Part shown: positions 26,776 to 61,459 of the stretch, in pieces
Numbering within the stretch: position 1 is the first letter of the stretch
Layout of the letters: the number at the start of each line of letters is the position of its first letter
NCBI GenBank assembly: GCA_017531225.1
Contig: JAFXLL010000012.1
Span: 124,001-188,000, forward strand
DNA length: 64,000 nucleotides
From: Bacteroidales bacterium
Lineage (GTDB): Bacteria > Bacteroidota > Bacteroidia > Bacteroidales > F082
Direction: 5' to 3'
Translations under genes and position numbers: made by a program
Notes under the pieces: generated by a model
What the model was told of the DNA's origin: nothing
What the model saw: the letters and a program-made list of their open reading frames with translations, nothing else
The model's database searches: none

Positions 26776-27772
26776 GGAACTGAAAGAGATCCTGTCGGAA
26801 GCTTCGCAGGTGTTTGTACTGACCGATGAGAACGTAGCCCAATATTGGCTTCCGGAGTTGGAGCATTGGCTGGGCTTTGAACATGCCGAAGAGATTGTCA
26901 TTGGTGCAGGCGAGAGTCACAAGACCCTCCAGACGGCGCAGGAGATCTGGGAGACGCTTTTGGAGAACAATGCCGACCGTCAGGCTGTACTTGTTAACTT
27001 GGGTGGAGGAATGGTGACTGACTTAGGCGGTTTTGTAGCTTCCTGCTATCAACGTGGTATCCGATTTGTCAATGTGCCGACGACTCTGTTGGCTATGGTG
27101 GATGCAGCCATAGGTGGCAAAAATGGCGTGAATTTCGCTGGATGCAAAAACCAGATTGGGACTTTTGCAGAACCATTGGAGGTGATGATCAATCCCATCT
27201 GCTTGAGTACTTTGCCCGAACGCGAGATGCTCTCAGGTCTTGCAGAGATGGTAAAGTATGGCTTTATCGCTGATGATGCTTTGCTCAAGGTGGACGACCG
27301 TAACTATGAACAATATATTCTCAGGGCAGGGGAGATCAAACGGGAGATTGTGGAAGAGGACTTTAAGGAACATGGCTATAGAAAAGTGCTGAATTTCGGA
27401 CATACTATTGGGCATTCCATAGAGAGTTATTCGCTCACGACCTCAACTCCGTTAACACATGGCGAAGCGGTGGCTGTCGGTATGTGGTGCGCCCTGTGGC
27501 TTTCAATTGACCAATGTGGGCTCGACGAAGAGGTGCTTGATGATTATTGCCCGAAGATGCGGTTGTTGTTATCAGAAGCGGAATGGGATTTTTCAGCAAA
27601 GGATATTGATGCCATCATGGCTTATCTTGACCATGATAAGAAAAATGTTGATGGAAAACATGGTTTTGTTTTGCTGAAAGACGTAGAAAAGCCGCTTTAC
27701 GATCAGTTTGTTCCTGATGAACTAGTGCGCCAGTCGCTCAATGAATTGATGGATTATTTGAGTGATCTATGA
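26765..27772 (+). CDS. aroB: 3-dehydroquinate synthase AroB
   Basis: The enzyme, about 335 residues, converts DAHP to 3-dehydroquinate in the shikimate pathway using NAD and zinc. Diagnostic stretches are LGGGMVTDLGGFVASCYQRG, VPTTLLAMVDAAIGGKNGVN and KNQIGTF. The zinc ligands are in NFGHTIGHSIE and THGEAVAVGM. Two starts are possible, ATG 26753 or 26765, both inside tsaE; MRLEELKEIL is the more compact one. The stop overlaps the aroA start (ATGA), coupling two steps of the same pathway. Confidence 0.96.
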   Translation: MRLEELKEILSEASQVFVLTDENVAQYWLPELEHWLGFEHAEEIVIGAGESHKTLQTAQEIWETLLENNADRQAVLVNLGGGMVTDLGGFVASCYQRGIRFVNVPTTLLAMVDAAIGGKNGVNFAGCKNQIGTFAEPLEVMINPICLSTLPEREMLSGLAEMVKYGFIADDALLKVDDRNYEQYILRAGEIKREIVEEDFKEHGYRKVLNFGHTIGHSIESYSLTTSTPLTHGEAVAVGMWCALWLSIDQCGLDEEVLDDYCPKMRLLLSEAEWDFSAKDIDAIMAYLDHDKKNVDGKHGFVLLKDVEKPLYDQFVPDELVRQSLNELMDYLSDL

Positions 27773-28992
27773 ATAGGCTGTTGAAAGGATCTGTGTCGCT
27801 GCCGGGGAGCAAAAGTGAGAGCAACCGTGCTCTGATGATAGCTGCCTACGGCGGATTTCCCCTGGATGTTGACGGCTTGTCCGATGCTCACGACACGGTG
27901 CTTCTGAAAACACTGTTGGAGCAATCGTCATTGCGAGGAGCGTCAGCGACGAAGCAATCCATAATTGATTGCGAAGATGCCGGCACCGTAGCCCGTTTCA
28001 TGCTGACCTACCTTGCTAACAAAACCGGCATTTGGCAGCTGACCGGCACCGAACGCCTTTGCCAACGTCCCATGGCTCCCTTGATTGATGCTTTGCGGCA
28101 ATTGGGTGCAGAGATTATTGGAGACAGCCTTCCTTTGAAAATAGTAGGGAAGCCACTCAAAGGCGGCTTTGTCACCCTTGATGCTTCGCAAAGCAGCCAA
28201 TTTGCTTCGTCTTTGTTGTTGGCTGCCCCCACATGGGAGCACGGCCTTCAATTGACTTTGACAGGTGATCCAGTCTCCATGCCTTACCTTGAAATGACCA
28301 TCAAGATAATGGAGCACTATGGCGTTCAAGTCGTTCGTGAAGGCAATACTATCAAGGTCGCTCACCAGTCCTATCAACCACGTCCTTTTATGGTGTCATC
28401 TGACTGGAGCGCGGCCTCTTACTGGTATGAAATGATGGCACTAAGCGAAGGGGGAGAGTTGCTGCTCAAAGGCTTGAAACCCAATTCACTGCAAGGCGAT
28501 GCAGTGGTGGCAGAATGGTTCAAACCGTTTGGCGTGATCGCTACTTTTGAGCCTGAAGGTGCCCGCCTGACCAAGGTTCCTGTCGATCCGCATGACCTAG
28601 TCTTCGACTTCTCCAATACCCCCGATTTGTTTCCTTCAATTTTCGTCACAAGTGTTGCTTTAGGATATCGAGCTCGTTTTCAAGGAGTTCAAAATTTGTC
28701 GATTAAGGAATCTAATAGAGTAGAATCATTAATTTCTGAATTGTCAAAAATTTACACCTTTATTAATATATATTCAGGTAATGAATTAGTGATTGAAAAA
28801 TCAGTGTTAAATGAAAGTTTTAGCAATACTAACAATGTGATATTTAAAACATATCTTGATCATCGTATTGCTATGTCGCTTGCCCCACTTGCTATGCAGA
28901 TAGGCTCATTCCATTTTGATAATCCAGATGTTGTAACCAAGTCATATCCAACGTTTTGGGATGATGTTACGAAAATTTTACAACTTATTTAA
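27769..28992 (+). CDS. aroA: EPSP synthase AroA (with palindromic-repeat insert)
   Basis: The 407-residue enzyme joins shikimate-3-phosphate and phosphoenolpyruvate. The substrate site appears as LPGSKSESNRAL (residues 11-22), DAGTVARFML, TGTERLCQRPM, SIKESNRVESL and DHRIAMSLAPLAM. Residues 53-65 (SSLRGASATKQSI) have no counterpart in the Bacteroides enzyme and are encoded by a palindromic interspersed repeat at 27926-27960, kept in frame. The last 300 bases (from about 28670) are strikingly AT-rich next to the rest, although catalytic residues in that part are intact. The enzyme is probably functional; a mosaic origin is inferred from composition. Confidence 0.94.
   Translation: MNRLLKGSVSLPGSKSESNRALMIAAYGGFPLDVDGLSDAHDTVLLKTLLEQSSLRGASATKQSIIDCEDAGTVARFMLTYLANKTGIWQLTGTERLCQRPMAPLIDALRQLGAEIIGDSLPLKIVGKPLKGGFVTLDASQSSQFASSLLLAAPTWEHGLQLTLTGDPVSMPYLEMTIKIMEHYGVQVVREGNTIKVAHQSYQPRPFMVSSDWSAASYWYEMMALSEGGELLLKGLKPNSLQGDAVVAEWFKPFGVIATFEPEGARLTKVPVDPHDLVFDFSNTPDLFPSIFVTSVALGYRARFQGVQNLSIKESNRVESLISELSKIYTFINIYSGNELVIEKSVLNESFSNTNNVIFKTYLDHRIAMSLAPLAMQIGSFHFDNPDVVTKSYPTFWDDVTKILQLI
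27926..27960. repeat. palindromic interspersed repeat (ATTGCGAGGAGC type) inside aroA
   Basis: This 35-base imperfect palindrome has arms CATTGCGAGGAGCG and GCGACGAAGCAAT, bracketed by the direct hexamer GCAATC. I recognise it as the widespread bacterial interspersed element usually read as TTGCGAGGAGCGAAGCGACGAAGCAA. It lies within a coding sequence and adds a multiple of three bases. A variable loop of AroA carries the resulting peptide. Confidence 0.75.
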
Positions 28993-58891: not shown

Positions 58892-61459
58892 ATGGAAAAA
58901 AACATTGCAAATATATCGCCCAACAACTCGGAGGATCTTACGTTCCTTGAGGAAGGTGCCAACACTGGCATCCAATTTAAGGATGTGTTGGTCCTTCTTA
59001 TCCGCAACCTTCCGTGGTTCATCATCTGTGCTGCAATCGGTGCAGGCATTGCCTATTACAAGGTGAAGGGTGAGGAGCGAATCTACTCCAGTTCGGCCAC
59101 TATTATGCTCAAGTCGGGCAGTAGCGGTGGTTCTGAATCGTTGCGCTCATCTGCCCTCATCAATGAGTTCTCGGGACAAGGAGTGGCCTTGACTTCCATT
59201 AGCAATGAGATGATCATCATCAAGTCGCAAACCTTGATGGAAAGCGTTGTGAGAAGGTTGAACCTCAATACCATGTATTCCTACAACACCCGTTTGGCCA
59301 AGCGTAACAAGGTGCTGTATAAGGATTCGCCAGTGGAGGTGTCATTCCCGGAAGCGAACGAACAGCTCTCGGCTACCTTAATCGTGACGCCCCAAGATAC
59401 TGCTACAGTGATTCTTTCAGCTTTCCAAGGGAATGAGGAATTGCCCAAAATGACTGTTCATGTGGGTGATGTGGTCAACACCCCGGTGGGTAAGGTGAAA
59501 GTTGAATACACATGGTATTACAATGATGGTTTCAATGGGATATCTATTCATGTACAGCGTTTGCCAGTAGCAATTGTGGCAGCAAGATACCGCAATGCCA
59601 TCTACGTAGGTGCCGATGATGAACGTAAAAACACGATCTTAAACCTCTCGCTGTCCGATACGTCACCGACCCGTGCCGCTGACGTGCTTAACACCCTGAT
59701 CGAAGTGTATAACGAAGACTCTATGGAGGACCAAAAGCGCATTCTGAAATACTCTTCGAAGTATATCGATGAACGTATTGCTTACCTCGATAGCGATTTG
59801 GATTCCATCTCACAACAAATGGTCAGTTTCCAGCAACGTCACAATATCATCGACGTACATGCCTTTGGCGAATCGTATCTGGCATCGAGCGTGGAGTTTT
59901 CCGAAGAGTTGAAGAATCTGGAATTCCAAAAGGGATTGACCGAGTATTTGTTGGATTATGTCGTTAGCAATGAGGAACACGATTTGATTCCCAGTAATAT
60001 GGGTTTGTCGGGAAAGTCGGCCGAGATGATCGACAAATACAATGAGATGGTGCTCCAGCTGAATAGGTACAAGCAAGCGGGCACGATGAACAACCCCAAC
60101 GCCCAGGCCAAATTGACGGAACTGATAACACTGGAGAGCAGCGTGGAAGAATCGTTACGGTCCTATCTAGGTGAATTGAATACCCGTATTGCATCGGCAT
60201 CCAGAGGCCGTCAGATGGCTAATGCGCAGGTGCAGTCAGTTCCTGTGGAACAATTGCGTGTGAAGGACATTGAAAGTAAGAAACAAATCAAGGAAGGACT
60301 GTTGCTTGCCATGCTCACCAAACGTGAAGAGCTCCTTATGAATGAACCAAAGATTGAAGCCTCGGCCAAGGTGATTGACCAGGCGTGGCCGAACTATTCG
60401 CCCATTGCACCACAGCCAAAGAAAGCGGTGACCAGAGGTATCATGATCGGGTTGCTGATTCCAATCATAGTGATTGTTCTGAAGCGTCTACTTGATACCA
60501 GAGTTCATTTCCGCGGCGATGTGGAAAGGCTGACAAAGACGACGTTCTTGGGAGAAATTCCTTTGAAGGAGGATGCCAAGGACCATGCTATCGTGGTTAG
60601 GGAAAATGGTCGTGACTCAATATCGGAGGCTTTCCGTTTGGTACGTTCCAATCTGGAATATATGAAAAAACAGGATATCAAAGGAGGGCAGGTGGTGATG
60701 TTTACCTCGTTTGTGGTGGCATCTGGTAAGACTTTTATCTCCACCAATCTTGCTACCAGCTTTGCTTTGGCCAACAAAAAAGTAGTATTGGTTGACCTTG
60801 ACATTCGTAAAGGTACCATCAATAAGGTGTTTGGCGTGAAGCCTCGGACAGGTGTGTCGAACTTCCTCTCAGGTGCGGTGGATTCAGTGGAGGAACTGAT
60901 CAACCCAGACCTGATTGTGCAGAACATGGATGTGGTGTTCTCTGGTCCCGTGCCTCCCAACCCCGCTGAATTGTTGATGAGCAACAGGTTGGAAGAGATG
61001 GTCGACTATCTGCGCCAACATTATGATTATGTATTCCTTGATAATGTGCCTCTTGGCATTGTTGCAGACCCGGAGATTGTAAAACGTGTCGTGGATACCA
61101 CCGTGTTTGTGATTAGGGCAAATAAGACCGACAAACGCCTGGTTTCGGAGCTTGACAGGATTTATAAGGCCGATAAGTTCCCGAACCTTTCAGTGGTCCT
61201 TAATTCTGTGAAGTACAAGAAACGTAGATCATACGGCTATGGCGGTTACGGATACGGCTATGGTTATGGCTACGGATACGGCTATGGTTATGGCTACGGA
61301 TACGGCTACGGCTACGGCGGCTACGGCTACGGAGGTTATGGTTATGGCGGCTATGGCTATGGTAATGAAGAGGAGGAAGGTGAAAAGAAGAAAAAACATG
61401 GCTCGAAGCACCGTCGGCACCATCATCACCATCATATTGAACCCAGCCAAGACGATTGA
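58892..61459 (+). CDS. wzc: polysaccharide co-polymerase and tyrosine autokinase (Wzc-like)
   Basis: The 855-residue protein has an N-terminal Wzz domain with TM1 at about residues 35-55 (LPWFIICAAIGAGIAYYKV). A long coiled periplasmic region follows, then TM2 near 515 (IMIGLLIPIIVIVLK). The cytoplasmic BY-kinase domain carries Walker A FVVASGKTFIS (about 605), Walker A-prime VVLVDLDIRKG and Walker B YVFLDNVPLG. The tail is exceptional: about 44 residues of alternating Tyr-Gly (781-824), then an acidic and lysine stretch and a run of histidines. Tyrosine-rich tails are autophosphorylated in this family and control chain length. Translation starts at 58892. Confidence 0.95.
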   Translation: MEKNIANISPNNSEDLTFLEEGANTGIQFKDVLVLLIRNLPWFIICAAIGAGIAYYKVKGEERIYSSSATIMLKSGSSGGSESLRSSALINEFSGQGVALTSISNEMIIIKSQTLMESVVRRLNLNTMYSYNTRLAKRNKVLYKDSPVEVSFPEANEQLSATLIVTPQDTATVILSAFQGNEELPKMTVHVGDVVNTPVGKVKVEYTWYYNDGFNGISIHVQRLPVAIVAARYRNAIYVGADDERKNTILNLSLSDTSPTRAADVLNTLIEVYNEDSMEDQKRILKYSSKYIDERIAYLDSDLDSISQQMVSFQQRHNIIDVHAFGESYLASSVEFSEELKNLEFQKGLTEYLLDYVVSNEEHDLIPSNMGLSGKSAEMIDKYNEMVLQLNRYKQAGTMNNPNAQAKLTELITLESSVEESLRSYLGELNTRIASASRGRQMANAQVQSVPVEQLRVKDIESKKQIKEGLLLAMLTKREELLMNEPKIEASAKVIDQAWPNYSPIAPQPKKAVTRGIMIGLLIPIIVIVLKRLLDTRVHFRGDVERLTKTTFLGEIPLKEDAKDHAIVVRENGRDSISEAFRLVRSNLEYMKKQDIKGGQVVMFTSFVVASGKTFISTNLATSFALANKKVVLVDLDIRKGTINKVFGVKPRTGVSNFLSGAVDSVEELINPDLIVQNMDVVFSGPVPPNPAELLMSNRLEEMVDYLRQHYDYVFLDNVPLGIVADPEIVKRVVDTTVFVIRANKTDKRLVSELDRIYKADKFPNLSVVLNSVKYKKRRSYGYGGYGYGYGYGYGYGYGYGYGYGYGYGGYGYGGYGYGGYGYGNEEEEGEKKKKHGSKHRRHHHHHHIEPSQDD
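61232..61363 (+). repeat. tandem TAYGGN repeat encoding the Tyr-Gly tail of Wzc
   Basis: The stretch of roughly 22 TAYGGN hexamers is arranged partly as longer units alternating GGCTAC, GGATAC and GGTTATGG. Every hexamer keeps the Tyr-Gly reading frame. Repeat length could change by slippage without frameshift because the unit is a multiple of three. Confidence 0.8.

Follow-up and report, generated by a model that had tools for sequence, protein, structure and literature searches.

A CGTC-tagged palindromic repeat in frame within aroA of a Bacteroidales bacterium, at an enzyme loop where relatives hold other short repeats

The aroA gene of a Bacteroidales bacterium, located in the 64,000-nt stretch of DNA analysed here (the window), very probably carries a CGTC-tagged REP, i.e., a short palindromic element of selfish nature that inserted into the gene and is tolerated in a loop of the encoded enzyme. 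In-frame palindromic repeats within genes are best known from Rickettsia, and such cases are hard to follow because few of them have relatives at every stage. In the present case, one enzyme loop displays intact, degraded, deleted, replaced and inverted repeats across many species. The gene, the repeat and their parts have the following window coordinates.

27769..28992, forward strand: aroA, encoding 3-phosphoshikimate 1-carboxyvinyltransferase (EPSP synthase), 407 aa, uninterrupted frame.
27926..27961, forward strand: CGTC-tagged REP, single unit of 36 nt or 12 codons, from a pattern search and comparison of 27 units of the same genome.
27926..27929, forward strand: CGTC tag; 25 of the 27 units start with CGTC and the others with TGTC and CCTC, where the pattern fixed the last two letters (TC) and left only the first two free.
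27930..27958, forward strand: imperfect palindrome ATTGC...GCAAT with an outer stem of 5 bp and further pairs inside it.
27959..27961, forward strand: CCA tail; 25 of the 27 units finish with CCA and the others with CTA and CCG, where the pattern fixed the first C and left only the last two letters free.
27934..27957, forward strand: codons 56–63, predicted loop between helix 41–55 and strand 64–67.

The full element, CGTCATTGCGAGGAGCGTCAGCGACGAAGCAATCCA (27926–27961), consists of the CGTC tag, the palindrome ATTGCGAGGAGCGTCAGCGACGAAGCAAT and the CCA tail, and it is a single unit without a partner. The original prediction, made from the DNA letters of the window, had described a palindromic element of 35 bases; its place was right, and its exact extent is 36 nt. 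The repeat encodes residues 54–64 (S54–S64, SLRGASATKQS) and parts of codons 53 and 65, and QSIIDCEDAGTVAR, one of the tryptic peptides expected to span the loop, begins within this segment. The element is indeed palindromic, with a stem that begins ATTGC/GCAAT and a predicted fold of a 5-bp outer stem followed by interrupted inner pairs, but the RNA hairpin formed by the aroA unit on its own does not stand out (−9.0 kcal/mol, z −1.05), in contrast to the strong fold of a paired copy at another locus (−45.5 kcal/mol, z −6.6). The GCAATC sequences on both sides of the element, which had been taken to resemble a target duplication, have other origins: the left copy consists of native aroA codons for E-Q-S, where relatives read GAGCAAGTG and similar, and the right copy is the repeat's own end. 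No target-site duplication, a classical criterion for MITEs, was seen at the aroA site.

As anticipated, the element lies in frame, and an intact 407-aa ORF continues around it. The ORF matches PF00275 (EPSP synthase) above the cut-off with an E-value of 1.4e-62; the match to TIGR01356 (aroA, NCBIfam) has an E-value of 4.5e-72, yet its score of 243 bits is below the 287-bit cut-off. The EPSP synthase fold and the conserved residues are retained despite the insert, in agreement with the expectation that conserved features had been kept. A position in a loop between conserved helices had also been proposed; the loop itself is supported by the structure model, which flanks it with helix 41–55 and strand 64–67, and the mean pLDDT is 75 for residues 51–60 compared to 91.6 for the whole AroA model. 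The repeat is best read as tolerated in a loop of EPSP synthase that is probably surface-exposed and permissive, and we infer that the insert-bearing AroA is enzymatically active and that the insert is neutral to the enzyme. As a separate observation, the GC content of aroA drops from 0.52 in residues 5–290 to 0.32 in residues 292–400 (C-terminal third, 28640–28989). This drop is also seen in the nearest relatives (L117–L129 and L131, weaker in L124) and not in the other sampled rows; aroA in the window's clade looks like a compositional mosaic.

The genome from which the window derives (2,583,400 bases in 14 contigs, completeness 98.4) contains other copies of the repeat, as expected for a genome-wide palindromic element. 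A search with the 29-nt body of the repeat and up to three mismatches returned eight matches, compared to none for a reversed-pattern control, and four places, aroA among them, match without any mismatch. A looser pattern returned 24 matches with one control match. Within the window there was one match and none in 100 shuffles, and a general repeat search inside these 64 kb was unproductive. Fourteen of the 24 loosely matching units are arranged in seven opposed (head-to-head) pairs, all seven with their tags facing outward, and one further pair has both units in the same orientation. In 24 related genomes, the CGTC repeat is present in 1 to 105 copies per genome, with controls of 0 in 23 genomes and 1 in the remaining one. 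A RAYT/IS200-type transposase flanked by the repeat was rejected as its visible source: none of the three Y1_Tnp (PF01797) genes of the genome has a full unit within its 1.5-kb flanks, in a scan that found one loose 9-nt match near L114 and had 151 nt on one side of L115. The notion of an unusually stop-free repeat was also rejected, as on average 4.59 of its six frames are open compared to 4.63 in dinucleotide shuffles and 4.11 in mononucleotide shuffles. With no excess of open frames over the dinucleotide shuffles, the repeat shows no sign of adaptation to coding.

Six of the 18 repeat loci of the genome lie within recognisable or long conserved frames. Besides aroA, these are the genes for a protein with a GreA/GreB C-terminal domain (GreA-like), a DcuC/YfcC-type transporter, a THUMP-like methyltransferase, an unnamed frame of 1426 aa, and the gliding lipoprotein GldH, whose signal peptide has WVASSLTLLAMT as its repeat-encoded middle part.

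L005 1074–1556 (same genome as the window, contig C11 near 260658), reverse strand: GldH repeat locus, with the repeat in the signal peptide.

The transporter insert is common to the window genome and its sibling, and as a unit it is absent from the gene in 11 other rows. Two of 12 relatives have different repeat pairs in the GreA-like linker, two of 12 have other units in the 1426-aa frame, and the methyltransferase unit was not seen at that place in the 12 relatives compared. In genome G116, the methyltransferase gene harbors a head-to-head CGTC pair at about residues 175–180, a different site from that of the copy in the window genome.

L250/L251 (genome G116, contig C12, about 60945–61030): CGTC pair in the methyltransferase gene, open frame of 480 aa.

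The in-frame copies use several reading frames and both strands, indicating that no particular peptide is being preserved. The NCBIfam RPE domain had no match at E-values up to 1 in six proteins, and RPE protein-domain models were therefore rejected for the repeat-bearing proteins.

Conservation of the aroA site was analysed in AroA relatives from ruminant-gut Bacteroidales records (the best 80 of 167), and the insert residues are missing from some close homologues, as the interpretation of an inserted element would have it. The sibling L033/L117 (84% amino acid identity) has an identical insert. In the relative L034/L118 (66%), the site is 27 nt shorter and reads CGTCATCCA, which corresponds to the two ends of the repeat fused together; in the longer reading, CACGTCATCCACTG, a CGTCAT start is joined to a CCA end, and the site is not a clean empty one. 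Judged by these ends, it looks as if it were the footprint of an in-frame repeat deletion. In L124, a complete unit, from CGTC to CCA, sits at the codon where the window's aroA has its own, and the L124 neighbours L123 and L127 carry a degraded unit at this site. Besides L034, six more rows of the window's 12-row branch are without a recognisable unit. The CGTC class needs two changes on the AroA tree, which does not decide between a single entry into the loop followed by frequent loss and several entries.

The window and its sibling L033 share 134 identical nucleotides (27844–27977) within 6.3 kb at 82.6% identity, and third codon positions are identical at 41 of 42 sites inside this tract compared to 248 of 365 elsewhere in aroA. 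The tract was rejected as a special property of the repeat, as the two species also share identical tracts of 229, 228, 101 and 188 nt in four gene regions besides this one. The aligned sequences suggest that the history of the shared insert may in part be one of recombination rather than descent. The tracts elsewhere, taken by themselves, suggest frequent short-tract recombination between the window species and its sibling, or conserved patches.

AroA matches were found in 164 genomes, 90 of which were fetched as loci. The alignment comprises 138 distinct AroA proteins, and the tree, from which the variable parts were excluded, has 94 rows (81 share the genus code of the window's genome, nine belong to further genera of this family and four are unassigned), the other 44 proteins being left out; it was built by a quick method that raised long-branch warnings, and 25 of its 91 inner branches are drawn open. 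A recognisable repeat is present at the AroA loop in 38 of the 94 rows, whereas the patterns used recognised none in the other 56. The repeats are of six kinds: CGTC (5 rows), TGTC (19), GAGACG (4), an TCTTATCC tandem repeat (6), TTGTCC (2) and GGCATTAA (2). The repeat state of the loop requires at least 25 changes on the tree, where the minimum possible is 8; shuffling gave 36.8 changes on average, and none of 200 shuffles was as low as the observed 25.

Three of the six loop classes, CGTC, TGTC and GACGCGAT...ATCGCGTC, were shown to occur genome-wide. The TGTC family has 9–49 copies in each of 14 genomes, which were picked for their AroA loops and in which the patterns recognise 13 of those loops, and no copies in 11 genomes including that of the window; controls were 0. 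The GACGCGAT...ATCGCGTC repeat is found at 18, 9 and 4 places in three genomes that have the same repeat in the AroA loop, and at one place in a fourth, whose loop carries a variant; there are three each in two other genomes and in G195, and none in G000, G134 and G081. The variable loop segment ranges from 2 to 67 residues. On these sequence comparisons, the best explanation is that the AroA loop would be a permissive landing site in which different lineages hold different short repeats.

Two more AroA loops vary in length, around residue 238 and at residues 329–357. Near residue 238, 21 of 87 rows are longer, 12 of them with a CCTGAGCTTGTCGAAGG-like palindrome. At the third site (residues 325–362), in-frame palindromes, e.g., GTACAGACGTGCCATGGCGCGTCTCTAC and GTAGAGACGTTTCCTGAAACGTCT, were observed in L178, L184, L185, L187, L190 and L193. 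In L057/L159, an in-frame tandem duplication comprises both the loop and its TGTC repeat, leading to 97 residues between the conserved anchors.

Orientation of the TGTC repeat flips between rows: 11 of the 19 rows have it in reverse, seven in forward and one in both orientations. In genome G195, 30 of 49 TGTC copies are flanked by outer arms that are complementary to each other yet differ between loci. The arms of these 30 copies match at 9.9 of 12 positions compared to 5.0 when swapped, and 24 of the 30 match at nine or more; for the 19 aroA copies, the corresponding values are 10.3 and 6.3. The G195 loci (L268–L297) show the TGTC repeats atop locus-specific complementary arms of about 8–16 nt, as if the repeats had entered at the tips of hairpins or been copied anew through template switching. 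Of the 19 aroA cores, 17 were sorted into outer-arm types by visual inspection. Cores within the same arms have a similarity of 0.724 in opposite orientation (16 pairs) and of 0.714 in the same orientation (21 pairs), compared to 0.59 across arm types (99 pairs) and a genome background of 0.614. Similarity within shared arms is thus much the same for both orientations, which indicates at least one in-place flip of the core for every one of the three arm types with several cores. The window's own aroA copy has no such arms, and the inversion concerns its relatives only. In yeast genes, arm homogenisation and spacer inversion result when the template is switched from one inverted repeat to the other (PMC8604942), and by analogy template switching might be the cause of both the flips and the deletion.

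In the model that we propose, a CGTC REP would land inside aroA by insertion, and the enzyme would tolerate it owing to its small size of 36 nt, the absence of stop codons from the frame in which it is read, and its position in a surface loop. The enzyme would then carry the repeat as extra loop residues for which no peptide function is needed. After insertion, the repeat would decay in place by substitution, as in L123 and L127 beside L124, or be deleted in frame with its ends left behind, as in L118/L034, and repeats of the TGTC family would be inverted where they stand, between outer arms that match, which is the outcome that template switching at a hairpin should have. One might object that the loop is merely a hypervariable native segment whose likeness to a genomic repeat is due to chance or to convergent low complexity, given that loop length in this group's AroA proteins spans 2 to 67 residues and that 56 of 94 rows are without a recognised repeat. 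This is highly improbable in view of the 29-nt body that matches exactly at four places and with up to three mismatches at eight, against a reversed control of 0, the full CGTC-to-CCA ends, and the fused ends in L118; for the window's insert, chance resemblance is refuted by the genome copy counts versus controls.

That the insert is a landed and tolerated repeat also has to be weighed against recruitment, whereby the extra loop would alter the regulation, stability or partners of AroA and be kept by selection. The identical DNA over 134 nt in two species at 84% amino acid identity, with third positions matching at 41 of 42 versus 248 of 365 sites, could be read in this way, as could the intact CGTC copy at the same codon in L124. 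Such long identical tracts are, however, common elsewhere between both species, neighbours show the loop lost, degraded or replaced, and other genes use different frames and strands, and we regard recruitment as unlikely. It is similarly doubtful that the hairpin is maintained for its RNA or DNA structure, which the protein would merely tolerate. The complementary and locus-specific arms of the TGTC copies (9.9 versus 5.0 of 12 in G195 and 10.3 versus 6.3 in aroA) and the predicted stem of −41.6 kcal/mol in L158 aroA would fit such a structure, but arms of this kind are missing from the window copy, which is a single unit (z −1.05), and template switching homogenises arms without selection (PMC8604942).

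The CGTC REP superfamily includes the Rickettsia conorii elements RPE-4 (CGTC-4) and RPE-6 (CGTC-1) according to Di Nocera et al. 2013 (PMC3733652), so that the suggested parallel to Rickettsia palindromic elements turns out to be better than an analogy. The same paper describes four families with an unpaired CGTC tag (or TGTC/CCTC), an 8–9 bp stem starting with AT, a loop of 4–5 nt and a short tail that is mostly CCA, with head-to-head dimers predominating, and reports them inside genes, in Bacteroidetes as one of five phyla, and without an associated transposase (PMC3733652). The repeat studied here resembles CGTC REPs as described there in its tag, CCA tail, AT-starting palindrome, head-to-head pairs, intragenic copies and lack of a repeat-flanked transposase. 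It differs in the recurrent occupation of the AroA loop and of two further gene loops, and in that the AroA loop also holds repeats of other families; different REPs at about the same gene site appear in that paper as one case, recB in two Xanthomonas (PMC3733652).

The Rickettsia palindromic elements RPE-1, RPE-4 and RPE-6 are likewise palindromes in frame within housekeeping genes. In contrast to them, the repeat is found in a far-off phylum, with relatives that are ruminant-gut Bacteroidales and not an intracellular parasite lineage, and its unit of 36 nt compares with the ∼150 nt quoted for RPEs in PMC10969869. Unlike the RPE-1 type, an element of about 100–150 nt, it uses several frames and has no conserved peptide. 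GTAG REPs with RAYT transposases are also short tagged palindromes that occur within genes, but the tag here is CGTC and the three Y1_Tnp genes have no flanking unit in the examined stretch. The yeast template-switch inverted repeats share arm homogenisation, spacer inversion in coding sequence and parallel recurrence, as described in PMC8604942. Compared with that description, the inverted repeats here arrive as multicopy genomic repeats, and the inversion spans the whole repeat core in the bacterial aroA of relatives, not of the window (PMC8604942). We found no report of recurrent repeats in AroA in a search that left most subscription literature outside, which is weak evidence of absence.

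Thus, against the literature surveyed, the element is of a known kind, an intragenic CGTC REP of the superfamily to which two Rickettsia elements belong, and the new part appears to be the serial colonisation of one enzyme loop by several families, with in-place inversion and in-frame deletion. As all stages are present in one loop, the supply of protein segments by selfish repeats, its rate and its effect on the enzyme can now be asked about. Caution is needed where such segments enter alignments or drug-target models of these bacteria, as they are repeat-derived and not conserved features. More tentatively, surface loops of housekeeping enzymes in these gut Bacteroidales could be safe harbours in which the repeat families present in each lineage are repeatedly inserted in frame, flipped, degraded and deleted, and this could be a main ongoing source of protein novelty in free-living bacteria. 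If true, in-frame repeats would be no oddity of Rickettsia, and in the boldest form of this idea, flips within a population would produce two loop versions of one enzyme.
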